From NCBI GenBank assembly GCA_009843635.1, contig VYDB01000052.1, forward strand, positions 1 through 34,261: a stretch of 34,261 nucleotides of DNA, read 5' to 3'. Shown piece by piece: positions 9,997 to 32,897 of the stretch. Below the pieces are notes generated by a model that was given only the letters and a program-made list of their open reading frames with translations, made no database searches and was not told the origin of the DNA. How positions within the stretch are numbered: position 1 is the first letter of the stretch; the number at the start of each line of letters is the position of its first letter. This stretch comes from Gammaproteobacteria bacterium (GTDB lineage: Bacteria; Pseudomonadota; Gammaproteobacteria; Pseudomonadales; Azotimanducaceae). The translations under genes and the position numbers were made by a program.

Positions 9997-10052
9997 GGTT
10001 CTCTCCTTCCGTAAGGCTAATGCGCACGAACGACGCCGGCGCGAAGCGGGAA

Positions 10053-10080
10053 ATTGTAGGGATTCTTGAAGGTATGTCAA
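10053..10080 (-). promoter_or_regulatory. Promoter of the first TonB-dependent receptor gene
   Basis: On the minus strand, a perfect -35 TTGACA (10075-10080) and a -10 TACAAT (10053-10058, five of six consensus bases) are 16 bp apart. The transcript would start near 10046 and have a leader of about 50 bases with a strong ribosome site. This is the best housekeeping-type promoter in the window. Confidence 0.8.
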
Positions 10081-10234
10081 TGAAACTGGAGAAATAATTG
10101 AGGGCTAAACTTGCCACCTTGATGCCAAGGTTCGCTATTCTTGGAACGCGGGGCGGGGGAGCCACGCGCTGGTAGCCGCTCGCCTGCCGGACCGACAGGC
10201 GTTGCGGGGTGGGACGCGGTTGGGAGAAGAAGGC

Positions 10235-11767: not shown

Positions 11768-11783
11768 CGGTCGTACCCAATTC

Positions 11784-12560: not shown

Positions 12561-12602
12561 GCCTACGCTCCTGTCTGAATTTGCCTAGAGCTTAGATGAG
12601 CC

Positions 12603-12624
12603 GTGAGCCAATTGGAAAGCTCAC
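12603..12624. promoter_or_regulatory. Candidate operator between divergent SDR and P450 genes
   Basis: GTGAGC and GCTCAC form an inverted repeat with 10-base spacing, and the inner palindrome CCAATTGG (12608-12615) is nested inside. It lies midway between the two divergent genes, a fitting place for a shared regulator. No regulator gene is adjacent, so the binding protein is unknown. Confidence 0.4.
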
Positions 12625-12641
12625 CTACGAAATCGATGGGC

Positions 12642-12647
12642 TATAGT
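12642..12647 (+). promoter_or_regulatory. Possible -10 element of the P450 gene
   Basis: TATAGT matches the -10 consensus at five of six positions, but no good -35 lies 16-18 bp upstream, so an activator may be needed. Transcription would start near 12654. This supports the ATG at 12676 rather than the GTG at 12652 as the start codon. Confidence 0.35.
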
Positions 12648-12675
12648 CCGCGTGAACGTCCTTGATGGGAAGAAA

Positions 12676-13833: not shown

Positions 13834-16091
13834 CGATAGACCGGTCGCCAGACGATCGTCGCCCCGTAGTGCCTCGGCGGCGCTGGGGTGGCGAAGCCAC
13901 CGCCCGCCGCTGGGTAGTTGTGCAGGAAGTACTCCTCATCGAAGGCATTGGTCATCCAGGCGGTGACCTGGTAGGTGCCGCCGGGTGATTCGTAACTGAC
14001 CCGGAAGTCAACCGCGTCGTAGGCGGGCACGGCCGCCACCTCAAGCACGTCGGGATCCTGATAGACCTTGTCCTTGTGACGGTAATCGCCTTGCAGGGCC
14101 AGCATGGCGCCGTTCGCCAGCGGGTGTTCATAGCGCACCAGCAGGTTGTAGGCCCAGTCCGGCGCGTTGCGCAGCGCGTTGCCGTCGCGGCTGGTGGAGG
14201 GCGCCGCCACGGGCGGCCGGAAGCCTGTGGGCACGAAGAAATTCGAAAACTCCGTGTCCAGAGTTGCCACGGCGCCGCTCAGCAGCAGCCGCTCGTGGGG
14301 CCGGGCGGTGAACTCGATCTCGACGCCTTCGATTTTCGCGTCCGCCGCGTTCTGGGTGAGCAGAATGCCGGGCGCGTCCGGCGGCGCATCCACCGGCACC
14401 AGAAGCTGCAGAATCTGTAAATCGGTGTAGTCGGTGGTGAACCAGGCGACATTAAGCCGCAGCCGATTGTCAAACCATTCGGTCTTGGCACCCACTTCCC
14501 ACTGTTCGGCCGCTTCGGGGTTGAACTGGTTGTTGGCGATGGAGCGCAGGTTGGACAGCCCTTGCCAACCGCCGGACTTAAATCCCTCCGAGTAGGTGGC
14601 GTAGAGCAGCGCATCGTTGGTCGGCGTCCAGTTCAGACTGAATTTCGGGGTGAAGGAGTCGAACTTGGCCTTGTCCACAAAATCCCAAGGCTCAGACGGT
14701 TGGCTTAAGCCCGGTATGACCACTGGCGCCGGTGTGCCGATGCGGTGAATGCGCTTGCGCTCCTCCGTTTGGCGCCCGCCGGCGCTGATGCTCCACTGAT
14801 CGTTGAACGAGTAGGTGATGTCCCCAAAAATGGCGTAGCTGTTGGTTTCGTTGTCCTGCCAGTCGCTGCCGGTGAATTTCGGCACTGCCACCAGGGAGCC
14901 GCCGGCGCCGTCAGGAACGGCTAGGCCCAAGCCGAGGGTTTCGGTGCGCTCGGTCTGCTCGTTGGAATAGTACAGGCCTGCCACCCATTGCCAGTTGCTG
15001 GCGCCTGAGTAGGCGATGCGCAGTTCTTGGGTGAAGGTGTCTGATTCGTCCCAGGAGTCGTTGTCGCCAAAAATTCCCGATATGCCGCCGGCGCCTGGGC
15101 TGCTGGCACGCAACAGGCCCATGGCGGCAGTGGCGACGGGCTCGTCATTCTGGCCGTCCACGTTGCGGAACGAGGTCACCGAGGTCAGGGTCAGCGCGTC
15201 GGTGGGGTAGTACTCGATGCGCGAGGTGACGCCGATCTGCTCGATGGCGCCGAGCCCTCGGTCGTCGGCCAGCACGGTGTGGATTTTGTCGTCGTAGTCC
15301 GCGTAGGTGGCTGACAGGTTAAGGTCCCACTGGTCGTTTGGCGCCCAACGCAAGTGGCCGCGCACGCTGGTGGAGTCGATGTCGAGCAGGTCGTCGCTAT
15401 CCACCGCATCAGGCAACTCGTTGGGGTAGTTTTCCGCAAAGTTGTCCAAGTAGCCGTCGCGGTTCTTGTGCGAGAAGGCCAACTTGCCGAACACCGTGTC
15501 GGCCAGCGGCCCCATCACGCGGCCGCGCACGCCGAACAGGCCCATGTTGCCAGCGCTTGCCTCGAGCACCGCTTCCGGCTCCTCGGTGGGCTTCTTGGTG
15601 ATGATGTTGATGGCGCCGCCTACCACGTTCTTGCCGAACAGGGTGCCTTGGGGGCCGCGCAGCACTTCCACCCGCTCCACGTCGAATATGTCCAGATTGA
15701 AGCCGGCCGAACGACCGCCATAGACATCATCTATGAACACGATCACCGACTGGTCGCCGCCGGCCCCGTCCTCGTTGGAACCAATGCCTCGAATGTAGAG
15801 CTGGGTTTGCAGCGGGTTGAACATACCCATCGTGAAGCCGGGCGTGCGCTCGGTGATGGCCTTGATGTCGCTGATGCCCATTTCCTCGAGTTGATCCCCG
15901 GAGAACGCGGACACGGAAAGCGGCACGTCCTGCAAGCGCTCAGCTCGCCGCTGGGTGGTGACGATGATCTCCTCAAGCACGCCCTCCTGGGCTAGCGCCG
16001 GCGCCCATGCGGGCAGCGTGAGCGGCACCGCCAGCAGCAGGGCGGTGGCCCTGTGCAGGCGCCGGCGGGTTCGATTCGATGTTGATGCCAT
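13830..16091 (-). CDS. TonB-dependent outer-membrane receptor
   Basis: A 753-residue receptor precursor. It has a basic N-terminus (NRTRRRLHR) and hydrophobic signal peptide ending PALAQ (about residue 35), a TonB-box-like LEEIIVTTQRR, a plug with LYIRGIGSN and VEVLRGPQGTLFGKN, and a 22-strand barrel ending in TIVWRPVYR. A GGAGAGG ribosome site precedes the ATG. It follows the NTF2-like gene by 36 bp in the same direction, so the two are probably one operon. Its TAA and the P450's TAG share bases 13831-13832 in a tail-to-tail overlap. The barrel differs widely from the first receptor, so it may take up a different compound. Confidence 0.93.
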   Translation of the reverse strand: MASTSNRTRRRLHRATALLLAVPLTLPAWAPALAQEGVLEEIIVTTQRRAERLQDVPLSVSAFSGDQLEEMGISDIKAITERTPGFTMGMFNPLQTQLYIRGIGSNEDGAGGDQSVIVFIDDVYGGRSAGFNLDIFDVERVEVLRGPQGTLFGKNVVGGAINIITKKPTEEPEAVLEASAGNMGLFGVRGRVMGPLADTVFGKLAFSHKNRDGYLDNFAENYPNELPDAVDSDDLLDIDSTSVRGHLRWAPNDQWDLNLSATYADYDDKIHTVLADDRGLGAIEQIGVTSRIEYYPTDALTLTSVTSFRNVDGQNDEPVATAAMGLLRASSPGAGGISGIFGDNDSWDESDTFTQELRIAYSGASNWQWVAGLYYSNEQTERTETLGLGLAVPDGAGGSLVAVPKFTGSDWQDNETNSYAIFGDITYSFNDQWSISAGGRQTEERKRIHRIGTPAPVVIPGLSQPSEPWDFVDKAKFDSFTPKFSLNWTPTNDALLYATYSEGFKSGGWQGLSNLRSIANNQFNPEAAEQWEVGAKTEWFDNRLRLNVAWFTTDYTDLQILQLLVPVDAPPDAPGILLTQNAADAKIEGVEIEFTARPHERLLLSGAVATLDTEFSNFFVPTGFRPPVAAPSTSRDGNALRNAPDWAYNLLVRYEHPLANGAMLALQGDYRHKDKVYQDPDVLEVAAVPAYDAVDFRVSYESPGGTYQVTAWMTNAFDEEYFLHNYPAAGGGFATPAPPRHYGATIVWRPVYR

Positions 16092-16127
16092 GATTCCTCT
16101 CCAGGTTGGTGGCGGCCGGTTCCGGGC

Positions 16128-16685
16128 TTATAGTTTAAAGTAGGGCGGCAAGTCGTTGGGCTCGATCTTCCGGAGGTTGGCGAAGGGGCTGGCGCCAAAG
16201 TAGATGTCTTCGCCGATCAGCTTGCCATCGGCGTCGGCGGGCCACAGCGTCACCAGTTGGGCGCCGCCGAGCCAGAGGTCGCCGCCCTGGACGTCGACGT
16301 CGCCGACCTTGGTCACGTCCATGGCAAGCAATGCCTCACCCTTATAAACCTGCTTGACTTGGCCTTCCGTGATGACGTGGTCGTCGCTAGCCACGACCTT
16401 ATCCACCACCACCTCAAATTGCTGGCCGCCGGTCTGGAACATGCCGGCGTAGAAGGCCCGCACGGCCTCCCGGCCCTCGATCACCGAAGGCTCGCCGCTG
16501 CCCCAGAAGTGATAGATCGGATGCGCCGTCAGGGTGTCCATCAAGGGGTCCAAGCGGCCCTTGATTTCATGCTCCATATGGTCGCGCACCTCAGTGATCA
16601 AGGCTTTGCGCCTAGGGCTGGTCTCTTGGGCAACTTGGGCTTCCAAGGCCAGCCAGCTCTGATGGGGGTTGATGGCATAGGTCAT
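16128..16685 (-). CDS. NTF2-like/SnoaL-fold protein
   Basis: A 185-residue protein of the cone-shaped NTF2-like superfamily. It has an N-terminal helical part, then DPLMDTLTAHPIYHFWG, the strand/helix VIEGREAVRAFYAGMF, and a beta-sheet (FEVVVDKVVASDDHVITEGQV) as in SnoaL-type polyketide cyclases and ketosteroid-isomerase-like proteins. The family includes isomerases, dehydratases and non-enzymatic binders, so the function is open. The AAGGAA ribosome site is about eight bases from the ATG. It leads the second TonB receptor and is divergent from a GPH transporter (70-bp gap), suggesting use on the same imported substrate. Confidence 0.8.
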   Translation of the reverse strand: MTYAINPHQSWLALEAQVAQETSPRRKALITEVRDHMEHEIKGRLDPLMDTLTAHPIYHFWGSGEPSVIEGREAVRAFYAGMFQTGGQQFEVVVDKVVASDDHVITEGQVKQVYKGEALLAMDVTKVGDVDVQGGDLWLGGAQLVTLWPADADGKLIGEDIYFGASPFANLRKIEPNDLPPYFKL

Positions 16686-16755
16686 GGCTCGGTTCCTTTT
16701 TGCTTCCTAAATCATCTACCATGCGGACAGGGATTGCCGCGGGGGGCGGTGCATC

Positions 16756-18123
16756 TTGCAGACCGGTTCGCAAAGCTCGCACAGACTGAAGCGCTCGACG
16801 CTGTTCTACTACAGCCTGGCCGACGTGCCGGTGATGATGTCGATCTTCCCCGCCCTCGTCTTCATCCCAAAATTCTACACCAGCGACATGGGCGTGCCCT
16901 TGGCCTTGGCGGCCAACATCATTCTGGGCGTGCGGCTGTTCGACATGGTGAGCGACCCGCTGATGGGCTACATCAGCGACCGCACCCAGACCCGCTGGGG
17001 ACGGCGGCGCCCTTGGCTGGTGGTGGCCACGCCCATCCTGATGCTCGGCATCTACCAGCTCTACCTGCCGCCGGAAGGCGCTGGCACCCTGCACATGCTG
17101 ACCTGGATGGCGGTGGTGTCTGTGGGCACCACCATGCTGCTCATTCCCTACTACGCTTGGGCGGCGGAGCTTTCGCCAGACTATAACGAGCGCTCCCGCA
17201 TCACCGGCTGGCGGTCCATGGCTGGCGTCGTCGGCAGCTTGGTGGCACAGTTGGCGCCGGCGCTGGCGTTGTTGCTCTTCGGCATCGGCGGCAGCCGCGC
17301 CGTGCTGGCGGTGGTGGGCGTCTCCATGCTGGTGCTGATGCCGATCTGCATCTTGCTGACGGTGACCCGGGTACCGGACAGCGGGGCGCCGCAGCCAACG
17401 GGGATGCCCATTTGGCAGGGCTTGAAGGTGATGCTGGCCAACGGTCCGTTCAAGCGGCTGGTGCTGACCTTCATGATCGGGCAAACGGCATTGGCCATCA
17501 CCACCCCGCTGTACGTCTTCTTCATCGCCTTTGTGCTGCGCGCCGAGGAAATGGCCATCTTCATGCTGACGTTCTTCTACGCGGCCAATTTCGCTGCGGT
17601 GCCCTTTTGGGTGTGGGCGTCGAGGCACATCGGCAAGCACCGGGCCTACGTGGCCAGCTTCGTCATCATCGCTTTTGCGCACCCCTTCTACATGCTGCTT
17701 GGCGAGGGCGACTTCTGGTGGATGCTGCCGGTCACCTTGACCACGGGCTTTGCGGCGGGTGGGTTTTCGGCGGCCCTGCCAAACTCCATGAAGGCCGACG
17801 TGATCGATCTGGATACCTTGAAGAGCGGCGAAAACCGCGCCGCTTCCTTCTTCTCGGTTTGGTCGTTCACTTATAAGGCGACCGCCTCATTGGGCGTGTG
17901 GATCGCCCTGACCGGGCTTGCGTTCTTCGGCTTCAATGCCGACCCGGAGGCCGTCAATGGCCCTGACGAACTTTTCGGGTTGCGCTTTTTGTTCTCGACG
18001 CTGCCGTCGTTGTTCTTCCTAGCCGCCGCTGCGGTGGTGTGGAACTACCCCATCACCGAAGCCCGGCATGCGGAGTTGCGGGCTCAATTGGAGCAGCGAG
18101 CGGCTGGGTCAGCCGCCGGATAG
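16756..18123 (+). CDS. GPH-family MFS symporter (TTG start)
   Basis: A 455-residue inner-membrane carrier, second GPH-type paralogue of the window. The signature GYISDRTQTRWGRRRPW follows helix 2, and IPYYAWAAELSPDYNERSRI follows helix 4, aligning with the protein at 10235-11767. Twelve helices are evident. No ATG occurs before the first helix; the TTG at 16756 follows a G-rich run and gives a normal cytoplasmic N-terminus (QTGSQSSHRLKRSTLFYY). It is divergent from the NTF2-like/TonB operon. The C-terminal NYPITEARHAELRAQL is shared with the paralogue. The substrate is unknown and probably the same class as that of the neighbouring receptors. Confidence 0.9.
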   Translation: MQTGSQSSHRLKRSTLFYYSLADVPVMMSIFPALVFIPKFYTSDMGVPLALAANIILGVRLFDMVSDPLMGYISDRTQTRWGRRRPWLVVATPILMLGIYQLYLPPEGAGTLHMLTWMAVVSVGTTMLLIPYYAWAAELSPDYNERSRITGWRSMAGVVGSLVAQLAPALALLLFGIGGSRAVLAVVGVSMLVLMPICILLTVTRVPDSGAPQPTGMPIWQGLKVMLANGPFKRLVLTFMIGQTALAITTPLYVFFIAFVLRAEEMAIFMLTFFYAANFAAVPFWVWASRHIGKHRAYVASFVIIAFAHPFYMLLGEGDFWWMLPVTLTTGFAAGGFSAALPNSMKADVIDLDTLKSGENRAASFFSVWSFTYKATASLGVWIALTGLAFFGFNADPEAVNGPDELFGLRFLFSTLPSLFFLAAAAVVWNYPITEARHAELRAQLEQRAAGSAAG

Positions 18124-21107: not shown

Positions 21108-21920
21108 ATGGGACGCTTATTGGTGGAAGGGGATCGGCAGATTTATTTTGAGCACTACCCCGGTACGGGACGCACGGTCGTGCTATCCCACGGCTGGGGA
21201 ATGGGCTGTCGGGTCTGGGACAACACGGTGGCCCGGCTTACTGACGCTGGGCACCGGGCGGTCATCTACGACCACCGTTGCTGCGGGCAGTCCGACAAGG
21301 ACTTTGCCGACGTCTCGATCGAGGCCCTCGGCACCGACCTGGCGGCATTGTGCCAGCACTTGCAGTTGGACCGTCCGGTCTTGAATGGCTGGTCATTGGG
21401 CGGCGCAGTGGTGGTGGATGCCGCCAGCCGCCTGGGCAGCAACGTAGGCGGCTTGGTGCTGACCGGCGGCGCCACGCCCCGCTACACCCAGGGCGAGGGC
21501 TTTCCCCACGGTGGCCAAGCGGAAGACGTTGCGGCCACCGTGGCTGCCTTGCGCGCCGACCGGGTGAGTTTCCTGAAGTCCCTGTACTTTGATGGCGTCT
21601 TTGCAAAGGAAGTGGGAGAGGACGTCAAGGGCTGGTGCTGGCGCATCGCCCTGCAGGCGAGCTCCGGGGCGGATGCCTCCTTAGGCGCCTTGGCGCAGCT
21701 CGACCAACGCAGCGCCATGGCGGATCTGTCCTGTCCCGCGTTGGTGGCGATCGGCGGGCAGGATGGGGTGGTGGTGCCCGAGATCGGCCGCTACGCCGCT
21801 GGCTGCTTGCCAAATGCTGAATTGGTCGAGTTCGAGGACTGTGGCCACGCCGTCTTTCTGGAGGACGCGGAGCGCTATCATGGGGCGTTGCTGGAGTTTC
21901 TGGCCGGGGTTGCCTCATGA
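21108..21920 (+). CDS. Alpha/beta hydrolase
   Basis: A 270-residue alpha/beta-fold hydrolase with intact triad: nucleophile S96 in GWSLGG, acid D219 in IGGQDGVV and base H247 in DCGHAVFLE. The oxyanion region is SHGWGMG (27-33). A strong AAGGAGG ribosome site precedes the ATG. Its stop overlaps the start of the luciferase-like monooxygenase (ATGA), so the two are coupled. A hydrolase coupled to a flavin monooxygenase is what one expects for a Baeyer-Villiger/lactonase pair, although ester or haloperoxidase-like chemistry is also possible. Confidence 0.9.
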   Translation: MGRLLVEGDRQIYFEHYPGTGRTVVLSHGWGMGCRVWDNTVARLTDAGHRAVIYDHRCCGQSDKDFADVSIEALGTDLAALCQHLQLDRPVLNGWSLGGAVVVDAASRLGSNVGGLVLTGGATPRYTQGEGFPHGGQAEDVAATVAALRADRVSFLKSLYFDGVFAKEVGEDVKGWCWRIALQASSGADASLGALAQLDQRSAMADLSCPALVAIGGQDGVVVPEIGRYAAGCLPNAELVEFEDCGHAVFLEDAERYHGALLEFLAGVAS

Positions 21921-22939
21921 GCGGGCGCCAAGTCAATTTCGGCCTCTGGTACGACTTCCGCAACCCGCCGCCCAGCCAAGTCGGCTTTCAGGACCTTTAC
22001 CGGGCCTGCCTCGACCAGATCGTTTGGGCGGAGTCTTTGGGCTTCGATTCCGTCTGGCTCACCGAGCACCACTTTTGCGAGGACGGCTACACCCCGTCGC
22101 CCTTGGTCATCGCCGCCGCCATCGGCGAGCGCACCATGCGGATGCGCATCGGCACCAACCTCATGCTGCTGCCGCTGGCGGACCCCGTGCGCCTTGCCGA
22201 GGATTCGGCGACGCTTTCCATCCTCACCGGCGGACGGTTCGACCTCGGCGTGGGCCTGGGGTACCGGCAACTGGAGTTTGACTACTTCGGGCGGCAGTTG
22301 AAGCATCGGCCGAGCCTCATGGAGGAGGGCATCGACATCATCCGTCAGTGCTGGAGCGGCGAGCCGGTGCGCATCGATGGCAAGCGTTTCCGCATCGACA
22401 GCTTGCCGGTTGCGCCGGCCCCCGAACAGGCGCCCAAGCTCTACATGGGTGGCATGGCACCGCCTGCCATCGCCCGGGCGGCAAGGCTGGGGGACGGTTT
22501 CCTCTCCACCGGCGGCATCGGCCACGACCTCTATGCTAGAGCGCTCGCCGACCTAGGCAAGCCGCGTTCGGCGGGCGCCATCTGTGCTGGCAACTGGTCT
22601 ATCGTCGCCCCGGACCCGGAAGCGGAGGCCGCGCGCATCGGCGAGCATGTGCTCTACCAAACCAATCAGTACATCGCTTGGGGCGCATTCGGCCCGCCGG
22701 ACCAGACGCCGCAATTCCCAGACGCCGCCAGCGCCATCGAAGGCGGCCTCTACGAGTTGTGCGACGCGGATGGCGCCGTGGCAAGCCTGACCGCCCTGTT
22801 GACGGACTGCCCGGAGATCATCGATGTTCACTTCTGGGCGCAATTCCCTGGCGAGCCGGTGGAGAGCGGCAGCCGGCGAATAGAGTACTTGGCCCGCCAA
22901 GTGCTGCCTCGAGTGCGGTCGGCGCTGGGTTTGAACTGA
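21917..22939 (+). CDS. Luciferase-like (LLM class) flavin-dependent monooxygenase
   Basis: A 340-residue TIM-barrel enzyme of the bacterial-luciferase superfamily, using reduced FMN from a separate reductase. The core shows AESLGFDSVWLTEHHF (strand/helix 2), IGTNLMLLPLADPVRLAED, then LSGGRFDLGVGLGYRQLEFDYFG-type segment (here ILTGGRFDLGVGLGYR) and later LYMGGMAPPAIARAARLGDGFL. It overlaps the hydrolase gene by four bases. The class covers alkanal, alkanesulfonate and type II Baeyer-Villiger enzymes (diketocamphane monooxygenases). The neighbouring P450, SDR and hydrolase make the Baeyer-Villiger role attractive, but it is inferred. No flavin reductase gene was seen. Confidence 0.9.
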   Translation: MSGRQVNFGLWYDFRNPPPSQVGFQDLYRACLDQIVWAESLGFDSVWLTEHHFCEDGYTPSPLVIAAAIGERTMRMRIGTNLMLLPLADPVRLAEDSATLSILTGGRFDLGVGLGYRQLEFDYFGRQLKHRPSLMEEGIDIIRQCWSGEPVRIDGKRFRIDSLPVAPAPEQAPKLYMGGMAPPAIARAARLGDGFLSTGGIGHDLYARALADLGKPRSAGAICAGNWSIVAPDPEAEAARIGEHVLYQTNQYIAWGAFGPPDQTPQFPDAASAIEGGLYELCDADGAVASLTALLTDCPEIIDVHFWAQFPGEPVESGSRRIEYLARQVLPRVRSALGLN

Positions 22940-23036
22940 AGGGGGTTTCGCCCAAGGGGAGCGTGCGAACATCATTCGACCGTGATTGTTTTCCGCAACT
23001 TCGTTATATTGGCTTCCAATCTATTGGGAGAGTGAC

Positions 23037-24107
23037 ATGAAGGTAGGTCTGTTGATGGTATTCCAGAATTTCGAGGACGGAATCACCGACCAAGGCGCGT
23101 GGGAGCGGGACATTCACCTAGGCGGCTTGGCCGAGCCCTTGGGGTTCAACACCTTGAGCGCCGTCGAGCACCACTTCTTCAACTACGCCATGTCGCCGGA
23201 CAACTTGCAGTACTTGAGCTACATGGCGGCCAAGACCGAGCACATCGGCCTGCTGACCGGGGCGGTCATTTTGCCTTGGCATGATCCCCTGCGGGTGGTG
23301 GAGCGCATGATCGTGCTCGATCACTTGAGCCAAGGCCGTGCCCTGTTCGGCATCGGCCGGGGTCTCGCCCGGCGCGAGTACGACACCTTCGGCGTGGACA
23401 TGAATGAGGCGCGGGACCGCTTTGACGAGTCCGCGGAAATGATCATCCGCGCCTTGGAGACCGGCGTCATCGAAGGCAACGGACCCTACTACAAGCAGGT
23501 GCGCACGGAAGTGCGTCCGCGCCCGTACGCTAGCTTCAAGGACCGCTTCTATGCGGTCGGCATGTCGTCGGACTCGGTGCCCGTGGTGGCCCGGCTCGGT
23601 GCCAAGATGATGAGCTTCGCGCAGAAGCCCTGGGCGGAAATGGCGCCCCACTTCGACCGTTACCGCACCCTCTACCGAGAGCATCACAACACCCAGCCGC
23701 CCTCGCCGGTGTGCGTGGACTTCCTGAGTTGCGACGAATCCGCCGAACTCGCCGAGGCCAACGCCCGCAAGTACATGGCCAACTACTACATCACGGTCAT
23801 GGAGCACTACGAAATGGCGGGCGAGCACTTTCGCAAGATGAAGGGCTACGGAGACTACGCGGACAACGCCGAACTGCTGAAGGACACCGGCATGGCGGAC
23901 GCCGCCAACGCCTTTGTTGACATCAACACCTTTGGCACTCCGCAGCAGATCCTCGACAAGATGGACCAGCGGCGCAAGGACATCGGCGACTTCGACCTCA
24001 CTGTGCAGGTCAGCTACGGCGGCCTGACTGGCGAGCAGGCCGAGAAGAGCATTCGCCTGTTCGCCGACCAGGTGCTGCCGGAGCTGCAGTCCTGGGAGAC
24101 GCACTAG
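23037..24107 (+). CDS. Luciferase-like (LLM class) flavin-dependent monooxygenase, second copy
   Basis: A 356-residue LLM-class oxidoreductase. It begins MKVGLLMVFQNF and has LAEPLGFNTLSAVEHHFFNY, HIGLLTGAVILPWHDPLRVVE, then LSQGRALFGIGRGLARREYDTFG, the normal order of the luciferase barrel. The start ATG 23037 has GGGAGAG upstream; earlier in-frame codons look untranslated. It is only distantly similar to the protein at 21917, so they probably act on different substrates or steps. A 97-bp gap with an isolated TATATT (23005-23010) separates it from the previous gene, so it may have its own promoter. Confidence 0.9.
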   Translation: MKVGLLMVFQNFEDGITDQGAWERDIHLGGLAEPLGFNTLSAVEHHFFNYAMSPDNLQYLSYMAAKTEHIGLLTGAVILPWHDPLRVVERMIVLDHLSQGRALFGIGRGLARREYDTFGVDMNEARDRFDESAEMIIRALETGVIEGNGPYYKQVRTEVRPRPYASFKDRFYAVGMSSDSVPVVARLGAKMMSFAQKPWAEMAPHFDRYRTLYREHHNTQPPSPVCVDFLSCDESAELAEANARKYMANYYITVMEHYEMAGEHFRKMKGYGDYADNAELLKDTGMADAANAFVDINTFGTPQQILDKMDQRRKDIGDFDLTVQVSYGGLTGEQAEKSIRLFADQVLPELQSWETH

Positions 24108-24168: not shown

Positions 24169-25716
24169 ATGAACATCGGCGACATTCCCGCCAAGTGGGC
24201 CAACCTTGACGCTAGCCGTCCGGCCTTAGTGGACATTCCGGCCGGACGGCGGCTGTCGTTCGGCGAGTTGGAGCAGGCCGTGCGGCGGCTGGCGAACGGC
24301 CTGCTCGGCTTGGGGCTGGCCAAGGGCGACCGGGTGGCCGTGCTGGCCAAGAACGGCATTGAGTACTTCGAAATCTATTACGCCTGCGCCCGGGCCGGGT
24401 TGATTGCCCAACCCCTGAACTGGCGCCTGGGCGTGCCGGAGCTGGCGCGCATTCTTGAGAATGGCGAGCCGTCGGTGTTGGTCACCTCAACGGATTTCGA
24501 GGCCGGGCGCCAAGCCCTCGAAGGCCAGGTGGAGATTCCCCATTGGCTGCACTACGGTCCCGGCAGCGACGGTTCCTTTGAACGGCTCAAGGCCAGCGCC
24601 GAGGATGCCAACCCCAAGACCGGTGCCGGTGGCGACGACCCGGTGCTCATCCTCTACACCGGCGGCACCACTGGCTTGTCCAAGGGGGCGCTGCACTCCC
24701 ATCGCACGCTTTACACGGGCATGCTCAACCAGACCGTCGCCGAGCGCGTGGTGCCGAGCGACGTGTACATGCTCACTGGCCAGATGTTCCACATTCCCGT
24801 CGCCTTGGCCATGAACTACATGGCCCACGGCTGTCCCGTGGTGCTGATGAACTTCGACGCTACCGAAGCCTTGGAGATCATCCAAGCGGAACGGGTGTCG
24901 GCGTTCCTTGGCATCACCACCATGCTCAATTGGATGATGGCGGTGGACGGCTTCGACCGCTACGACCTGTCGAGCCTGCGCAACATCCAATACGGCGGCG
25001 GGCCGATGCCGGAAACGGTGGTCAAGGCCGCCCTCGACGCCTTCCCCTGCACCCTGATTCAAGGCTACGGTCAGACCGAGGGCATGACCATGACTTTCCT
25101 CTCCCAGGAGGACCATGCCGCAGCGGTGTCGGGCAACCGTCCCGAACGCCTCAATTCGTGTGGACGCGAGGGCTTCATCACCCGCGCCCGGGTGGTTGAT
25201 GATGTGGGCCAGGACGTGCCCAAGGATGGCCGCACGCCCGGCGAGATCGTCATTCAATCCGAAGCCAACATGCTCGGCTACTGGCGCCAGCCCGACCTGA
25301 CCGCCAACACCCTGCGCGATGGCTGGATGTGGACCGGCGATGTGGCCACCTGGGACGAGGACAGCTACATTTTCATCGTCGATCGGGCCAAGGACATGAT
25401 CATTTCCGGTGGCGAGAACATCTACTCCACCCAAGTGGAAGCCGCCATTCACCAGCACCCCGGCGTGTTGGAGGCGGCGGTGATCGGCGTGCCCGACGAC
25501 GAATGGGGCGAAGCCGTGAAGGCGGTGGTGGTAATGAAGCCGGGTGAGGCCGCCACCGAGCAGGAGATCATCGACACCGCCCGCGCCCATCTCGCCTCCT
25601 ACCAGAAACCGCGCAGCGTGGATTTCGTGGACAGCCTGCCCAAGGCCCCCACCGGCAAGATACTCAAGCGTGACCTGCGCGACCCGTACTGGCAGGCGCG
25701 GGGCCGCAACGTCTGA
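24169..25716 (+). CDS. Acyl-CoA synthetase (AMP-dependent, class I adenylate-forming)
   Basis: Activates a carboxylic acid to its CoA thioester through an acyl-AMP. The 515 residues show the P-loop LYTGGTTGLSKGA (around T164), the aromatic/acid motif YGQTEGMT (about 301), the hinge-side motif WMWTGDVATWDEDSYIFIVDRAKDMI, GGENIYSTQVE, and the C-terminal catalytic Lys497 in PTGKILKRDLR. All are intact and the length is typical. It opens the set of tightly packed CoA-ester genes ending at 28164, four bases before the first hydratase subunit. It is related to medium/long-chain or bile-acid-type CoA ligases, and the substrate acid is presumably produced by the monooxygenase/hydrolase genes upstream. 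Confidence 0.93.
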   Translation: MNIGDIPAKWANLDASRPALVDIPAGRRLSFGELEQAVRRLANGLLGLGLAKGDRVAVLAKNGIEYFEIYYACARAGLIAQPLNWRLGVPELARILENGEPSVLVTSTDFEAGRQALEGQVEIPHWLHYGPGSDGSFERLKASAEDANPKTGAGGDDPVLILYTGGTTGLSKGALHSHRTLYTGMLNQTVAERVVPSDVYMLTGQMFHIPVALAMNYMAHGCPVVLMNFDATEALEIIQAERVSAFLGITTMLNWMMAVDGFDRYDLSSLRNIQYGGGPMPETVVKAALDAFPCTLIQGYGQTEGMTMTFLSQEDHAAAVSGNRPERLNSCGREGFITRARVVDDVGQDVPKDGRTPGEIVIQSEANMLGYWRQPDLTANTLRDGWMWTGDVATWDEDSYIFIVDRAKDMIISGGENIYSTQVEAAIHQHPGVLEAAVIGVPDDEWGEAVKAVVVMKPGEAATEQEIIDTARAHLASYQKPRSVDFVDSLPKAPTGKILKRDLRDPYWQARGRNV

Positions 25717-25720
25717 ACCC

Positions 25721-26173
25721 ATGGGCGTGCTCACCCCGGAACTCAAGGCCAACATCGGCAAGGCCGCACCGCCAAGGATCGAGGTGGTCACCCGCCGCGA
25801 CATTCGCAAGTACGCCATCGCCACCAACCAGCGGCAGCGCAAGTACCTGGATGGCGACGAAGCGCCGCCCCTCTACCACGTGGCGCTTTTTTGGGACGTG
25901 GTGGAACTCGACGAACTGACCCCGGATGGTGTCTCCATCGACGCGCTGTTGCCCAAGTTCCCCTTGGAGAAGGCCATGGCCGGTGGTCTGAACATCACCT
26001 ACCACGACCGCATCCGCCCGGGCGATGTGCTGGTTGGCGAGCGCACCCTGACCGACATCTATGAAAAGGAGGGCCGCTCCGGGCCCCTGATCTTCTACGA
26101 AGTGGTGCTCGAAGTGCGCCGTCAGGACGGCAGCCCGGTGATCACTGAAAAGACCACGAGGATCCTGCGATGA
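25721..26173 (+). CDS. MaoC-type hotdog protein, FAS1-like dehydratase domain (hydratase subunit)
   Basis: A 150-residue single-hotdog protein of the MaoC N-terminal/FAS1-like dehydratase group. The segments IRKYAIATNQRQRKYLDG, APPLYHVALFW, and GLNITYHDRIRPGDVLVGERTLTDIYEKEG are the usual hot-dog helix, loop and sheet. It lacks the catalytic hydratase motif, so it probably pairs with the next gene's product as a heteromer, as ChsH2(N) pairs with ChsH1 in steroid side-chain hydration. The ATG has no ribosome site and lies four bases after the synthetase stop; translation is likely coupled. ATGA overlap with the next gene. Confidence 0.85.
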   Translation: MGVLTPELKANIGKAAPPRIEVVTRRDIRKYAIATNQRQRKYLDGDEAPPLYHVALFWDVVELDELTPDGVSIDALLPKFPLEKAMAGGLNITYHDRIRPGDVLVGERTLTDIYEKEGRSGPLIFYEVVLEVRRQDGSPVITEKTTRILR

Positions 26174-26589
26174 GTGCACTGCGGATCGCGGCGCTGAGAC
26201 CGGGCCATGAACTGCCTGCGCAGACCCACAAGCCGGACAACGTGCAGCTTTTCTTCTACAACGCAGCGCTCTGGAACGCCCACCGCATCCACTACGACCT
26301 GCCTTACGCCACCGAGGCGGAAGGCTATCCGGGCTTGGTGATCGCCGGCCCCTTGATGGGCGATTGGCTCGGGCAGTGCGTGGAGGCTTGGTTGGGAGAC
26401 GGCGGCGCCCTGGTGAACTTGGAGTACTCCAATCGCGGTGCGGCTTACATCGGCGAAACCCTGACCGCGGGCGGGACCGTGGAAACGGTGGATGCCGCCA
26501 AGGGCGAGGCGTCCTTAACCCTCTTCGTCCGCAACGAAGCGGGCGACGTCATCACGCCGGGGCGCGCCTTGGTTCGCCTGCATGGCTGA
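26170..26589 (+). CDS. MaoC-like hydratase subunit (catalytic hotdog)
   Basis: A 139-residue single-hotdog protein. The segment LWNAHRIHYDLPYA..GYPGLVIAGPL is the hydratase-2-type active-site region in the N-x4-H form used by HTD2/mesaconyl-CoA-hydratase-like enzymes, where the conventional D-x4-H has Asn. It would add water across an enoyl-CoA to give the beta-hydroxyacyl-CoA. It overlaps the upstream hotdog gene by 4 bp and the thiolase-like gene by 8 bp. Its product is therefore expected to be the partner of the 25721 protein and to feed the Ltp2-like enzyme. Confidence 0.87.
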   Translation: MSALRIAALRPGHELPAQTHKPDNVQLFFYNAALWNAHRIHYDLPYATEAEGYPGLVIAGPLMGDWLGQCVEAWLGDGGALVNLEYSNRGAAYIGETLTAGGTVETVDAAKGEASLTLFVRNEAGDVITPGRALVRLHG

Positions 26590-27757
26590 GGGTCCTTCAC
26601 TGCGCGGCCAAGTCGCCATCGTCGGCGTTGGCGACACCCAAGTGGGCAAGGTGCCGGAGTTGAGCGCCACGGGCCTGTGCATCGACGCCGCACAACGGGC
26701 GCTCGACGATGCGGGTCTCACCAAGAACGACATCGATGGGTTGGTCACCTGCAATAGCATGGCCGAGCCGCACATGTATCACGCCGAGGCGATGGCGGAG
26801 CATCTGCAGATCTTCCCCAGCTACTGCGTCAGCGCCGGCGCTGGCGGTGGCACCACTTTCGCCGTGCTCTACCAAGCCGCTTTGGCGATCATGCACGGGG
26901 TTTGCGACCGTGTGCTGATCAGCATGGCGGACAGCTTGCGCACTGGGCTTTCGCGGGAGCAAGCCATGGTGATGCAATCCTCCTCGGGCCATCCCCAATT
27001 TGAGACGCCCTACGGCGCGACGGTGCCTGGCTACTACGCCCTGATCGCCAACGCCTACATGCACAAGTACGGCGTCACGGCGGAGCAGATGGCCGCCGTG
27101 GCGGTCACCGCCCGGGCCCATGCAGCGCTGCACCCGGGCGCCCAGATGCGCACGCCGTTGACCGTGGAGGACGTGCTGGCCAGCCGCATGATTGCCGATC
27201 CGTTGCGCCTGCTCGATTGCTCCTTGGTCTCCGACGGCGGTGCCGCAGTGGTGCTGGCCCGCGCTGAGGCGGCGGGCGACCATCCGCACCAGCCGGTCTA
27301 TTTGCTTGGTGCCGGGGAGGGGCATGGCCACGAACACATCAGCCAAGCCGGGGACCTGACCTCCTCCCATGCTCGTCAGGCCGGGGAGCGGGCCTACGCC
27401 ATGGCTGGGATAAACCCACAAGATATTGATTTTGTTGAACTTTATGATTGCTTTACACCGGTGGTGCTGATCGAGCTGGAAGACTTGGGCTTCTGCGGGC
27501 GAGGGGAGGCGGGCGCTTTCGTCGCCGAGGGGCACACTAGGCTGGGGGGCAGCCTGCCGATGAACACTCACGGCGGCTTGCTGTCGCATTCCCATCCGGG
27601 TAACCCGGGCGCGATGTTCGCGCTCACCGAAGCGGTGCGCCAGTTGCGCGGCGAGGCAGGCGAACGCCAAGTGGCGAATGCGGAAACGGCCTTGATCCAC
27701 GCCCAGGGCGGCATCCTGTCGAGCCATTGCACCGCGATTTTGGGGCGAGACCGGTGA
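26582..27757 (+). CDS. Thiolase-superfamily, Ltp2-like retro-aldolase candidate (lipid-transfer/SCPx-type)
   Basis: A 391-residue thiolase-fold protein (VAIVGVGDTQVGK start; RTPLTVEDVLASRMIADPLRLLDCSLVSDGGAA middle domain; NTHGGLLSHSHPGNPG near the end). The nucleophile region reads SAGAGGGTT, with no cysteine where SCPx thiolases have NCATG, so normal Claisen chemistry is unlikely. The usual His-Asp-x-Phe motif reads ELYDCFTP, with Tyr288 in place of His, as expected for Ltp2-type aldolases, which are known to use tyrosines and a DUF35 partner. The next gene is exactly such a DUF35 protein (GTGA overlap). Likely role: cleavage of a beta-hydroxyacyl-CoA. Sixteen codons (27410-27457) are strikingly AT-rich. 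Confidence 0.88.
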   Translation: MAEGPSLRGQVAIVGVGDTQVGKVPELSATGLCIDAAQRALDDAGLTKNDIDGLVTCNSMAEPHMYHAEAMAEHLQIFPSYCVSAGAGGGTTFAVLYQAALAIMHGVCDRVLISMADSLRTGLSREQAMVMQSSSGHPQFETPYGATVPGYYALIANAYMHKYGVTAEQMAAVAVTARAHAALHPGAQMRTPLTVEDVLASRMIADPLRLLDCSLVSDGGAAVVLARAEAAGDHPHQPVYLLGAGEGHGHEHISQAGDLTSSHARQAGERAYAMAGINPQDIDFVELYDCFTPVVLIELEDLGFCGRGEAGAFVAEGHTRLGGSLPMNTHGGLLSHSHPGNPGAMFALTEAVRQLRGEAGERQVANAETALIHAQGGILSSHCTAILGRDR

Positions 27758-28164
27758 GCGTTGACGCCAAGCCCCTGCCGCCGATCAATCCCAGCACCCA
27801 GCCCTTCTGGGATGCCTGCGCCCAAGGACGCCTGCTGCTGCAGCGTTGCGGCGATTGCGGCCATCTACAGTTCTATCCGCGCTTGCTGTGCGCCGCCTGC
27901 GGCAGTCGGACGCTCGAGTGGGCGGAGGTCAGCGGTCGGGGCAGGGTGAAGACCTTCACCATCATTCGCCGCGCCGTCAGCGCCGCCTTCGAACCCGATG
28001 CACCCTACGTGGTGGCGCTGGTCGAGCTGGAGGAGGGGCCGACCCTGATGAGCAACATCGTCGGCTGCGATCCGGCCGACGTCGCCATCGGCCAGCCGGT
28101 TCGAGTCACCTTCGAGATGCGTGCGCAGGGCATCGCGGTGCCCCAATTCGAGCCAGCGGCCTGA
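27754..28164 (+). CDS. DUF35 OB-fold/zinc-ribbon partner of the Ltp2-like protein
   Basis: A 136-residue DUF35 protein: N-terminal helix PSTQPFWDACAQGRLLLQRC, a rubredoxin-like zinc ribbon with CGDCG and CAACG pairs, then an OB-fold (GRGRVKTFTIIRRAVS, PYVVALVELEEGPTLMSNIVG). DUF35 proteins bind acyl-CoA and partner thiolase-fold enzymes; ChsH2's DUF35 domain with Ltp2 is the best-known case. Start GTG 27754 overlaps the thiolase stop (GTGA), giving strict coupling and probably stoichiometric expression. In actinobacterial ChsH2 this domain is fused to a hotdog domain; here the parts are separate genes. Confidence 0.9.
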   Translation: MSVDAKPLPPINPSTQPFWDACAQGRLLLQRCGDCGHLQFYPRLLCAACGSRTLEWAEVSGRGRVKTFTIIRRAVSAAFEPDAPYVVALVELEEGPTLMSNIVGCDPADVAIGQPVRVTFEMRAQGIAVPQFEPAA

Positions 28165-28203: not shown

Positions 28204-28683
28204 ATGGACCGCACCGTACAGCTTGCCCAAGCCCGCTTCGTGATCGAGGAGATCATATTCCGCTACGCCGAACTGCTTGATTCCGGCAATCTTGAAGGCC
28301 TTTCCGCCCTGTTCGCCCGAGGCGCCATCAAGCCCGCCGTCGGGGAGCCCGTGAAGGGTGCCGAAGAGGTCTTCGGGCTCTATTCCACCGTGGTGAAGTT
28401 CTACGACGCGGATGAGAGCCTCGTCCCGTACGAGCGCGGCCAATGCACCCCGCGCACCCGGCACGTCACCACCAACCTGATATTCGAGTTCGACAATGCG
28501 GTCAAGCAAGCGACGGTGCGCAGCGTTTTCACTGTTTACCAAACTTTGGCTGGCCGCAATGAAATAGTGGCGGGAGGGCGCTACGTCGATAAGTTCGCGC
28601 GCACCCTGCAAGGTTGGCACATCGATGAGCGGGAGATCATCATCGAGAACGCGGGTGACATGAGCAGGCACTTAAATGGCTAG
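28204..28683 (+). CDS. SnoaL-like/NTF2-fold protein
   Basis: A 159-residue NTF2-superfamily protein. It starts with the typical helix (ARFVIEEIIFRYAELLDSGNLEGLSALFA), then a beta-sheet with TPRTRHVTTNLIFEFDNAVKQATVRSVFTVYQ and WHIDEREIIIE. Members act as small isomerases, dehydratases or lactone-forming cyclases, or are inactive. A canonical AAGGAG lies about 15 bases before the ATG, further than usual. It overlaps the next gene by eight bases. In these catabolic clusters it may isomerise a ring product; the function is not established. Confidence 0.8.
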   Translation: MDRTVQLAQARFVIEEIIFRYAELLDSGNLEGLSALFARGAIKPAVGEPVKGAEEVFGLYSTVVKFYDADESLVPYERGQCTPRTRHVTTNLIFEFDNAVKQATVRSVFTVYQTLAGRNEIVAGGRYVDKFARTLQGWHIDEREIIIENAGDMSRHLNG

Positions 28684-29401
28684 TTCATGGAGCAATGCGG
28701 AGGGGCTGGCCGGTGCCATGGCAGTGGCCATCCGCAATGGTGGAACGCTCCCAAAGATGCCAGCGAACTTGGGGATCGAAGAGGCCTATGCGCTTCAGAA
28801 AACGGTCGTCGCAGCCGTGTCGGGCGGTTCGGTGGCCGGCCTCAAAGCGGGCCTGACCGCTGCGGCAGCCCAAGCGCAGTTCGGCGTCAGCCATCCTCTG
28901 ATTGGCAGCCTCTACAAGCAGGGCCGCATGGCCCCGGGCGTCTCGTTCGCCAGCGCGCCGGGCGTCATGCTGGAATGCGAAATCGGCGTCGTGATCGACG
29001 AGCGGGGTGTGCCCCAGTCGGCAGGGCCGGTCATTGAAGTGCCGCGCATGGCGTTTGCCGATTCGGAGGACGTCAACGGCGTCAACCTGCTTGCCTGCAG
29101 CATCGCCGCCGACCGCTACATCGTGGGTACCCAGTTACCGATGCTGGCGTCCTATGCGGAAATCGAAGCGCGGCTCATCCGGGATGGCCAGACCGTCAGC
29201 GCCGCGCCAGCCACCGAGGCCTTGGGCGGACCCGGTCCAGCCGTCGAATGGATTCTCCGCGAAGCCCGTTTGCGCGGATTGCCGATTGCCGAAGGCATGC
29301 TGCTCATCACCGGCGCCATCGGCGGCATCCATCCGGCGGAGCCCGGCAGCTACCGCGCAGACTACGGCGTCTTGGGAAGCATCGAGTTCACGGTCACTTA
29401 A
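28676..29401 (+). CDS. 2-keto-4-pentenoate hydratase/FAH-fold family protein
   Basis: A 241-residue member of the fumarylacetoacetase-fold hydratase/decarboxylase family (MhpD/DmpE-like). Conserved parts are GLKAGLT, the PLIGSLYKQGRMAPG loop, metal-ligand segment ECEIGVVID (E-x-E type), and the late LLITGAIGGIHPAEPGSYRADYG. These enzymes add water to 2-oxopent-4-enoates from meta-cleavage or related ring breakdown. The start overlaps the SnoaL-like gene by eight bases; a start further in is not supported. It probably ends the 24169-29401 operon. Confidence 0.85.
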   Translation: MASSWSNAEGLAGAMAVAIRNGGTLPKMPANLGIEEAYALQKTVVAAVSGGSVAGLKAGLTAAAAQAQFGVSHPLIGSLYKQGRMAPGVSFASAPGVMLECEIGVVIDERGVPQSAGPVIEVPRMAFADSEDVNGVNLLACSIAADRYIVGTQLPMLASYAEIEARLIRDGQTVSAAPATEALGGPGPAVEWILREARLRGLPIAEGMLLITGAIGGIHPAEPGSYRADYGVLGSIEFTVT

Positions 29402-31170: not shown

Positions 31171-31284
31171 CTCAGTGGAGAACTCGATGGGAGTTGAGAG
31201 ATCCGGTAGAACCCCAAACTGGCGCAGGCCGAACAGCCGTCCTAGTATCCGACACATTTGAAAAACAAAACAAGGAGCGCGCTC

Positions 31285-32193
31285 ATGGCGCAAGCGAACG
31301 ACATCAGTCAGCAGCCCTTTGAGGTGCTGCCAGCCGCCGACGGAGCCGTTGCGGGTCCAGTTCGCAGCCCCCGCAACATTGAGCAGTCCCTGCCCAATTC
31401 GATACATAACGATGCGGTGGCCCAGAAGCTCGGGCTGCGCGGGGGCACGGTGGCCGGGTCGCTGCACATGGAGCAGTTTCCGCCGCTTCTCGTCTCGTTG
31501 TTCGGTCCGGAGTGGTGGTCCAGTGGGGGCCTCTCGCTCTACTTCAAATATGCGACGACGGATCGGGAGGCGGTGCAGTGCTTTGCGAAGCGGCCGAATT
31601 CCCCTGACCTTGGGGTGCAGGCGCCGGTTTGGATGGACACCGATGATGGGCGTCTAGTCGCCGAAGGCACCGCTTGGACCGGTCGGACACAAGCGCCCAC
31701 GCCGTTGTCGGAGCGGGCCGCAAATGTGCCGCTGCCGAGGGATCTGCGCATATTCAAGGATTTTGGTGTCGGCAGGGCGATGGAGGGCATTCCGGTTCGC
31801 ATCGATGAGGCGGCCCTTGCGCGCCGTCTCGATGTCATCGTGGAGCCTCTTGAGCAGTACGTCGAGCCGGATCGGTACGGCGAGCGGGTGCTGCCGCCGA
31901 GCATGCTGACCCATGCACTCACGGCCTATCACACCACCATGCTGCAGGGCTGGCCTGACTTGGGTGTCGGCCTCTACGGCGCCATCGAAATCGAGCACCT
32001 CGCCGGGCCGTGCTTCGTGGAGCACGACTACGAGGTGCGCGGAGAGGTACTTGCCGTGGGCGAAACGCCGAGAACAGAGTACTTGTGGTATGAGAGCATC
32101 CTCTCGGAGCCGTCCAGCGGCGTGGACCGGGCGCGGATGCTGATGATGCTGCGTTTCATGAAGGACTCCAGCCGGGCATGGCGGGTGAGTTGA
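31285..32193 (+). CDS. Double-hotdog MaoC-like dehydratase/hydratase protein
   Basis: A 302-residue protein with two hotdog-like halves. The N-terminal half has NSIHNDAVAQKLGLRGGTVAGSLHMEQFPPLL, the usual H/D hydratase loop with the long hydrophobic helix; the second half (LYGAIEIEHLAGPCFVEHDYEVRGEVLAVGETPRTEYLWYESIL) resembles the sheet of another hotdog. ATG 31285 has AAGGAG seven bases upstream and is chosen over the TTG at 31258. Likely an enoyl-CoA hydratase-like or thioesterase-like enzyme of the same catabolic region, separated from the operon by the nuclease-like gene. Composition returns to the GC-rich level, unlike its left neighbour. Confidence 0.78.
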   Translation: MAQANDISQQPFEVLPAADGAVAGPVRSPRNIEQSLPNSIHNDAVAQKLGLRGGTVAGSLHMEQFPPLLVSLFGPEWWSSGGLSLYFKYATTDREAVQCFAKRPNSPDLGVQAPVWMDTDDGRLVAEGTAWTGRTQAPTPLSERAANVPLPRDLRIFKDFGVGRAMEGIPVRIDEAALARRLDVIVEPLEQYVEPDRYGERVLPPSMLTHALTAYHTTMLQGWPDLGVGLYGAIEIEHLAGPCFVEHDYEVRGEVLAVGETPRTEYLWYESILSEPSSGVDRARMLMMLRFMKDSSRAWRVS

Positions 32194-32250: not shown

Positions 32251-32493
32251 ATGCAGACCATCGGTTCATACGAAGCGAAAACCCGCCTTCCCGAGTTGCT
32301 CCGCCAAGTTGAGCGGGGGGAGAGATTCACCATTACTCGCCGGGGCTTGCCTATCGCTCGAATTGTTGGAGTCGAGGAAAGTGTCGATGATCGCCGCTCT
32401 GTCATCGAACGCTTGAAGGCCGCTCGCGCAAGGCGACCTTCCATTTCGGTCGAGGAACTGATAGCCACTCGAAATGAAGGGCGAAGACCCTGA
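32251..32493 (+). CDS. vapB: Phd/YefM- or VapB-type antitoxin
   Basis: An 80-residue type II antitoxin. The N-terminal IGSYEAKTRLPELLRQVERGERFTITRRGLPIARIVG is the Phd/YefM DNA-binding fold (short strand-helix with the ITRRGLPIA motif), and the C-terminal part (about 50-80) would wrap around the toxin. A GAGAGGAC ribosome site precedes the ATG. It overlaps the PIN-domain toxin by one base (TGATG), the usual coupling of such pairs. Confidence 0.9.
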   Translation: MQTIGSYEAKTRLPELLRQVERGERFTITRRGLPIARIVGVEESVDDRRSVIERLKAARARRPSISVEELIATRNEGRRP

Positions 32494-32897
32494 TGTCCTT
32501 TGTGCTCGATGCATCAGTCACGGCCTGCTGGTGCTTTCCTGATGAGCAGGCTGCGGCGGCGGATGCCGCCATGCGAAGGCTGCTCGGCGAAGAGGCGATG
32601 GTCCCATCGGTGTGGTCCTTGGAGGTTCGCAACATTCTGGTGGTGAACGAACGTCGGGGCCGCATCGAGCCTGAGGACTCCGATGCTTTTCTCCGTGAAC
32701 TTCTCCTGCTCCCGATCCGAATCCGCCCCGACCAAGATGAAAGTGCGCTATTGACCCTCGCTCGAAAGCACCAACTCACTGCCTACGACGCGGCATACCT
32801 TGACCTCGCTGTGCGAATTTCCGTCCCAGTTGCGACGTTGGACCGGTCACTTGCCCGTGCGGTTCGGGCCGAGGGGCTGCAGGTCATCGCCGCGTAG
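32493..32897 (+). CDS. vapC: VapC-type PIN-domain toxin (ribonuclease)
   Basis: A 134-residue PIN-domain endoribonuclease. The acidic metal-binding set is intact: D6 (VLDAS), E44 (WSLEVRN), D99 (TAYDAAY) with D104, and D117 (ATLDRSL). The order of strands and helices is typical and the length is normal for VapC (about 130-140). VapC toxins cut tRNA or rRNA to stop translation; the target cannot be read here. Coupled to vapB through TGATG. With all key residues present, the pair is likely functional, in contrast to the ruined hipBA locus at the other end of the window. Confidence 0.92.
   Translation: MSFVLDASVTACWCFPDEQAAAADAAMRRLLGEEAMVPSVWSLEVRNILVVNERRGRIEPEDSDAFLRELLLLPIRIRPDQDESALLTLARKHQLTAYDAAYLDLAVRISVPVATLDRSLARAVRAEGLQVIAA

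Follow-up and report, generated by a model that had tools for sequence, protein, structure and literature searches.

What reaction is encoded by a run of five genes in which a thiolase-fold protein stands between two hotdog proteins and a DUF35 protein? The run occupies positions 24169 to 28164 of a 34,261-nucleotide stretch (the window; contig VYDB01000052.1 of assembly GCA_009843635.1) from a gammaproteobacterium of the Azotimanducaceae, whose genome is labelled G000 here. A first-pass annotation, made from the sequence alone, had proposed a retro-aldolase cassette split over separate genes, closest in design to the Ltp2/ChsH1/ChsH2 system of actinobacterial steroid degradation and possibly acting on a non-steroid substrate. 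We now consider it moderately probable that the cassette shortens a side chain in two steps, hydration followed by retro-aldol cleavage.

The cassette and its thiolase-fold protein

The cassette comprises the genes listed below; ACS, HDN, HDC, and THL, together with LLM1 and LLM2 further on, are abbreviations for the cassette and neighbour proteins.

24169..25716, + strand: acyl-CoA synthetase (ACS); open reading frame (ORF), PF00501 at 2.2e-77 and PF13193
25721..26173, + strand: hotdog-N protein (HDN); ATG start, PF13452 at 4.2e-16
26170..26589, + strand: hotdog-C protein (HDC); no Pfam match, phmmer match to 8huc/8khg at 9.6e-14
26582..27757, + strand: thiolase-fold protein (THL); PF22691 at 1.1e-67; candidate active-site residues Gly89, Tyr288/Cys290 of a YDCF motif, His338, and His373
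27754..28164, + strand: stand-alone DUF35 protein (zinc ribbon and OB fold); PF12172 and PF01796

ORFs, domain calls, and start codons agreed on this arrangement, as first annotated, and placed the modules in separate genes. The intergenic distances of 4, -4, -8, and -4 are exact, since the ATG at 25721 and the GTG at 27754 were both confirmed, the latter overlapping the TGA of the THL gene that ends at 27757. Pfam and NCBIfam agreed on the domains of all but HDC, which was identified through its match to the chains of itaconyl-CoA hydratase. ACS would convert an acid into its CoA thioester.

A scan with THL found 90 loci, of which the best 80, fetched solely by similarity to THL, were retrieved with their flanks. 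By title, these are mostly metagenome-assembled genomes (MAGs) and isolates of the Pseudomonadales/Halieaceae, Sphingomonadales, and Lysobacterales/Xanthomonadales, along with three Bacillota isolates; some MAG titles are doubtful, such as that of L016, titled Klebsiella pneumoniae. Residues of THL were counted over 86 unique rows of relatives, of which one is unreadable at 288-377 (likely L046, whose frame has a stop) and two at 82-90. The position of the thiolase nucleophile cysteine is occupied by Gly89 in all 84 readable relatives, and both the YDCF motif and His338 are kept in 85/85. The first-pass annotation had named a cysteine in the nucleophile loop as the finding that would count against it, and Gly89 was found there instead. 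Its description of THL as cysteine-less holds for this loop but not for the whole protein, which has 8 cysteines, Cys290 among them. Cys82, seven residues ahead of Gly89, is kept in 83 of the 84 readable relatives.

Among the solved chains nearest to THL by sequence are two aldolases, TcLtp2 and CtSal. The closest, 4u4e, a putative thiolase from Sphaerobacter thermophilus (49% over aligned columns), also lacks the nucleophile cysteine and keeps His338, but it has YDSF and falls in a neighbouring clade. Alignment with TcLtp2 set YDCF against YDHF and His338 at the column of the catalytic Tyr344. In the alignment with CtSal (32% identity over aligned columns), Tyr288/Cys290 correspond to Tyr302/Cys304, whereas Leu333 and His338 stand opposite Gln347 and Gln352. 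The accessible part of PMC12329534 describes the Tyr/Cys pair as essential in CtSal and the Gln at the column of THL His338 as inert. In the tree, the THL relatives form their own clade with a support of 100, apart from the TcLtp2 clade (100), and CtSal, the one Sal sequence included, branches as sister to a group made up of the window and 4u4e clades (support 79). Direct orthology of THL with Ltp2 was rejected on motif and tree. Comparison of folds was discarded as a test of function, since thiolases and aldolases score alike. The lack of a nucleophile cysteine and the Sal-type Tyr/Cys pair make the retro-aldolase chemistry first proposed plausible, and on these residues THL is a probable retro-aldolase with Cys290 as its likely catalytic acid.

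The hydratase pair, the DUF35 partner, and known systems

The two hotdog proteins matched opposite halves of the itaconyl-CoA hydratase chains 8huc/8khg. The HDC profile search returned the C half first (4.4e-15), followed by HadB (1.5e-6), and the HDN profile search returned the N half first (7.2e-10), followed by Rv0504c (0.005) and HadA (0.15). The ChsH1/ChsH2 entries matched the HDC profile weakly, with E values of 0.19-0.2, and were not listed with the HDN profile. Judged by these searches, the pair is nearer to the itaconyl-CoA hydratase lineage than to ChsH1/ChsH2. HDC carries an NxHRIHxD motif in which N36, H41, and D43 are invariant in 23/23 rows, and HRIHxD was looked for in the HDN sequence and not found. 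This supports the earlier view of one catalytic and one non-catalytic subunit: HDC is the probable catalytic subunit of a hydratase, and HDN, weakly like the HadA-like Rv0504c, is probably the non-catalytic one. According to the accessible part of PMC11321319, HadB carries catalytic residues that HadA and HadC lack. The HRIHYD motif is common to HDC and itaconyl-CoA hydratase, although the latter is one fused chain and the cassette has two ORFs overlapping by 4 bases. Itaconyl-CoA hydratase yields a tertiary alcohol for a C-C lyase, and its C-C cleaving partner belongs to another family. A literature search for a structure of itaconyl-CoA hydratase found nothing.

The DUF35 protein had as its best chains by phmmer the DUF35 domains of CtShy (3.8e-23) and TcChsH2 (3.4e-20). 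Its putative zinc ligands C41, C44, C55, and C58 are invariant in 23/23 rows, and as all four are cysteines the zinc ribbon would be of the C4 rather than the C3H1 type; the Shy zinc finger is of the Cys3His1 type in the accessible text of PMC12329534. The DUF35 protein is the expected partner of THL. As far as the accessible parts of the sources go, the stand-alone DUF35 proteins ChsH4 and IpfE pair with Atf1 (PMC10398937) and, on pIBU218, with IpfD (PMC9195938), and a Comamonas mutant in which the MaoC and DUF35 parts were expressed apart retained both activities (PMC12502768). For these reasons the separation of DUF35 is not in itself novel.

Several described systems resemble the cassette in part. 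The bile-acid hydratase-aldolase CtSal/CtShy of Comamonas testosteroni (9myr; accessible parts of PMC12329534 and PMC11321319) shares the thiolase fold, the glycine at the nucleophile position, the Tyr/Cys dyad of YDC, a DUF35 partner, and a linked hydratase. CtShy, however, is a MaoC-DUF35 fusion with a C3H1 finger, whereas the cassette has a separate C4-zinc DUF35 protein and two non-fused hotdogs as its hydratase. TcLtp2/ChsH1-ChsH2 (6ok1) has the fold, the missing nucleophile cysteine, a C4 zinc DUF35, and a heteromeric hotdog hydratase with one catalytic subunit in common with the cassette, but it differs in its YDHF motif and Tyr344, in its fused MaoC-DUF35 protein, and in its clade. The proposal that Ltp2/ChsH is the closest design was not sustained, given the YDCF and His338 site, the separate clade, the itaconyl-CoA-hydratase-type hotdogs, and the E value of 0.19 for ChsH1.

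Atf1/ChsH4 of Mycolicibacterium neoaurum, compared by description only, pairs an aldolase with a stand-alone DUF35 protein within a single operon, which the accessible part of PMC10398937 describes with a reductase and a regulator and with no hotdog pair; the same source gives Atf1 as 56% identical to Sal1. The ibuprofen cluster of pIBU218, in the accessible part of PMC9195938, has separate genes for the thiolase-like IpfD and the DUF35 protein IpfE beside a CoA ligase and a Rieske oxygenase. In the openly accessible literature, covered mostly by title and abstract, no description was found of this combination of parts or of a Tyr-Cys-His site. A split-off DUF35 partner and the type of mechanism are already known, and the combination and the site are apparently undescribed in that literature.

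Conservation, spread, and neighbouring genes

Adjacency could be tested in 72 loci, those having at least 1 kb before and at least 0.5 kb after THL. HDN, HDC, THL, and DUF35 stand side by side and in the same order in 64 of them, and since these loci had been selected by THL, the arrangement goes beyond chance and the split layout is the normal state among the relatives. The block was missing from L012, L013, L024, L037, L045, L056, L063, and L070; in L037 a hotdog pair lies ~7 kb upstream. Neighbouring genes in the relatives were counted by tblastn. The synthetase is directly upstream of HDN in 48 of 68 relatives, and a Baeyer-Villiger-like flavoprotein was present in 6/80 loci.

The spread of the cassette is patchy. 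Of 200 genomes from the window's family, 29 have HDN at E<=1e-40; THL reaches E<=1e-100 in 16 of 58 relatives. A class-wide spread was rejected, as among 369 genomes drawn from the class HDN reached E<=1e-40 in its own genome only. Plasmid records with a match to THL (573) or to HDN (34) all had less than 60% identity (the best among the matches listed being 51% and 39%, respectively); the cassette itself was therefore not seen on plasmids, and spread by plasmids was rejected. The mobilizable plasmid pRB98 of Rhodococcus oxybenzonivorans (L108) carries a synthetase 65% identical to ACS, flanked by two thiolase/OB-fold pairs, and one of the two thiolases groups with IpfD in the tree. A phage origin was likewise rejected, the phage collection having yielded no match. 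The three Bacillota isolates (L024, L037, L045) carry THL-DUF35 with 66-69% identity to the window protein, which is a sign of transfer between phyla.

The genes around the cassette in the window include the following.

21108..21920, + strand: alpha/beta hydrolase (Pfam scan); at least 45% identity in 23/80 loci
21917..22939, + strand: luciferase-like monooxygenase LLM1; PF00296; at least 55% identity in 18/80 loci
22986..24107 (start 23034 in the scripts), + strand: second luciferase-like monooxygenase LLM2; PF00296
28204..28683, + strand: SnoaL_4 / ring-hydroxylating beta-subunit-like protein; PF13577 and PF00866; just downstream of DUF35
28676..29401, + strand: 2-keto-4-pentenoate hydratase-like protein; NCBIfam NF008461 at 1.7e-12 (under its cut-off), no Pfam match

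Some of the relatives have the alpha/beta hydrolase and LLM1 conserved along with the cassette, and LLM2 is 87-100% identical in loci L009-L014. The 28 window proteins scanned against Pfam included neither an acyl-CoA dehydrogenase nor a Rieske oxygenase. Upstream, at 7594-18123, are two TonB receptors, a P450, a short-chain dehydrogenase/reductase (SDR), and two MFS_2 transporters, a set that fits a catabolic island. Elsewhere in the window are an MmeI-like restriction-modification protein of 930 aa that has the full set of five MmeI Pfam domains (4304-7096), a 311-aa protein having no Pfam match (31258-32193, scanned from 31288) that is 72-92% identical in L009-L011, and a small type II toxin-antitoxin pair (32251-32897) of a Phd/YefM-like antitoxin (PF02604) and a PIN-domain protein (PF01850).

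The proposed reaction and its alternatives

In the proposed two-step route, ACS would load an acid onto CoA, an enzyme not detected in the window would desaturate the acyl-CoA, and an HDN/HDC heterodimer would hydrate the alpha,beta double bond. THL and its DUF35 partner would then split the beta-hydroxyacyl-CoA by retro-aldol cleavage, releasing a short acyl-CoA together with an aldehyde or ketone. The beta-hydroxyl proton would be accepted by Tyr288 as the base, and the enolate would receive its proton from Cys290, alongside His338, or from His338 instead. We speculate from linkage that a released ketone could undergo a Baeyer-Villiger-type oxidation by LLM1 and then pass to the hydrolase. 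Lacking the nucleophile cysteine, THL is unlikely to catalyse thiolysis, and the relationship of the hotdogs to itaconyl-CoA hydratase suggests a branched beta-carbon at which a ketone could not be formed, so that retro-aldol cleavage would be the way out. There is a weak indication that the substrate is a bulky, probably polycyclic acid of steroid or terpenoid type.

Several observations favour hydration and retro-aldol cleavage. Gly89, YDCF, and His338 are kept, and the Tyr/Cys pair is essential in CtSal. The stand-alone DUF35 protein finds its counterparts in both aldolase systems, and the hotdogs match the halves of a hydratase. Finally, the four-gene block is intact in most testable loci, and an acyl-CoA dehydrogenase relative (at least 45% identical to that of L030) is found in 6/80 loci.

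A special case of this explanation is a steroid side-chain complex proper, in which a Sal-like aldolase and a differently built hydratase would act on a sterol- or bile-acid-like side chain, the C3 step being left to an Ltp2-type paralogue. We regard this as possible but tentative. On contig C19 of the same genome (L110, G000:C19:30000-46000), HsaA-, HsaC-, and HsaD-like genes form a row that also includes two CoA-transferase-like genes. Of these two, the first encodes a protein matching PF01144 at 1.9e-25; the product of the second matches PF01144 weakly and has E values of 3.9e-60 and 3.8e-56 with 6co6 and 6con, versus 3.8e-19 with glutaconate CoA-transferase. We take 6co6 and 6con to be the steroid-ring hydrolase IpdAB (IpdB), and use Ipd names in general on the same assumption. 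A nearby SDR exceeds its NCBIfam cut-off, but the Hsa-like matches (300, 248, and 195 bits) are below their curated cut-offs of 450, 450, and 400, and HsaD, HsaA, and IpdE2, when searched for directly, yielded nothing that passed the cut-offs. By these matches, C19 likely holds a steroid-ring degradation cluster.

Of 30 genomes with a THL relative, 29 were tested (all but L050), and 15 of these have the IpdB-like marker at E<=1e-80, as do 14 of the 25 with the full block; two more of the 29 had a weak match, and 12 had none at a cut-off of 1e-20. Among the genomes lacking the marker are Luminiphilus syltensis and Pseudohaliea rubra (full block) and the three Bacillota. The IpdB-like marker was present in 12/12 genomes with LLM1 versus 3/17 without LLM1, or 2/13 among full-block genomes without it, with kinship uncorrected; within a Halieaceae-like subset, defined by title and neighbourhood, the figures were 10/10 with LLM1 and 2/6 without. 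In the window's family (cut-off 1e-60), the marker was present in 9 of 29 HDN carriers versus 7 of 171 others. Against the steroid complex, this leaves 20 of the 29 carriers without it, and outside the window's own genus the contrast is 3/22 versus 6/169 (p 0.07, again with kinship uncorrected); the zinc ribbon, moreover, is C4 and not the C3H1 of Shy. In favour of the steroid complex, the accessible part of PMC5790920 reports that Halieaceae and Spongiibacteraceae isolates degrade steroids.

The Ltp2-type paralogue (L004, G000:C86:16651-17739) has YDHF and a tyrosine at the Tyr344 column and falls in the TcLtp2 clade at 100, and with it in the genome the window's enzyme would serve another step. 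The genome has 12 THL matches in all, and for ten of them a DUF35 (OB_ChsH2_C) match lies no more than 350 bases away. These ten thiolase-like/DUF35 pairs, on C47, C28, C86, C1, C59, C115, C113, C147, and C145 and in the window, are a large expansion, and the motifs of seven fetched paralogues differ (YDSF, YDCF, YDHF, YDAF, HDCF, YDCY, and YENF). The suggestion of a non-steroid substrate found no direct support and is weakened by the HsaA/C/D-like and IpdB-like genes and by the marker's presence in every tested LLM1 carrier. For the cassette of the window, steroids or similar compounds are plausible substrates, a reading we do not extend to the whole family.

Removal of an aryl side chain as in the ibuprofen pathway (ipfABDEF), where a CoA ligase, ring oxygenase, thiolase-like protein, and DUF35 protein strip the acyl chain off a dihydroxylated ring, is unlikely. 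In its favour, a Rieske alpha subunit directly follows the DUF35 gene in 37 of 69 relatives and a SnoaL/ring-hydroxylase-beta-like gene directly precedes ACS in 38 of 66 (one such protein checked in each case), and IpfD, IpfE, and IpfF are 36%, 39%, and 32% identical to THL, DUF35, and ACS, respectively. The relatives' Rieske protein, however, is merely 27% identical to IpfA, and the scanned window proteins include no Rieske oxygenase, though 26 Rieske matches lie elsewhere in the genome. IpfD itself has a YDAF site and belongs to another clade, and the annotation of the ipf cluster shows no hotdog pair.

Still less probable is a real thiolase or acyltransferase, either an SCP2-thiolase or a PhlABC-like Friedel-Crafts acylase, that would use Cys290 or another cysteine. 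THL was rejected as a true thiolase because the nucleophile cysteine is missing, with glycine in its place in every readable row, and as an SCP2-thiolase because it has Gly89 and YDCF where that family has cysteine and HDCF. A likely SCP2-type thiolase with both features (L006, grouping with the SCP2-thiolase 6hsj at 98) is already present elsewhere in the genome. A decarboxylase or inactive scaffold is the least probable explanation, for although the poorly active TbSLP shares YDCF and shows just slow malonyl-CoA decarboxylation, CtSal with the same residue pair gave no acetyl-CoA from malonyl-CoA (both from the accessible part of PMC12329534), and THL is linked to the hydratase pair and the DUF35 gene in 64/72 loci.

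Beyond the two-step reaction itself, we suggest, as a proposal that may well prove wrong, that marine and soil Proteobacteria have, in this cassette, a third hydratase-aldolase complex, assembled independently and acting on polycyclic acids. It would consist of an itaconyl-CoA-hydratase-type heterodimer, a hybrid Tyr-Cys-His retro-aldolase, and a free DUF35 protein, and would allow beta-oxidation to get past a beta-carbon at which oxidation to a ketone is blocked. If this is true, the DUF35-thiolase-fold aldolases would be a wide-ranging set of C-C lyases, recombined with various hydratases, rather than a steroid-only pair of families. The invariant Tyr-Cys-His site would then be of use for testing how thiolases gave rise to aldolase activity, and side-chain catabolism in the Halieaceae and their relatives could be predicted with the aid of the cassette.

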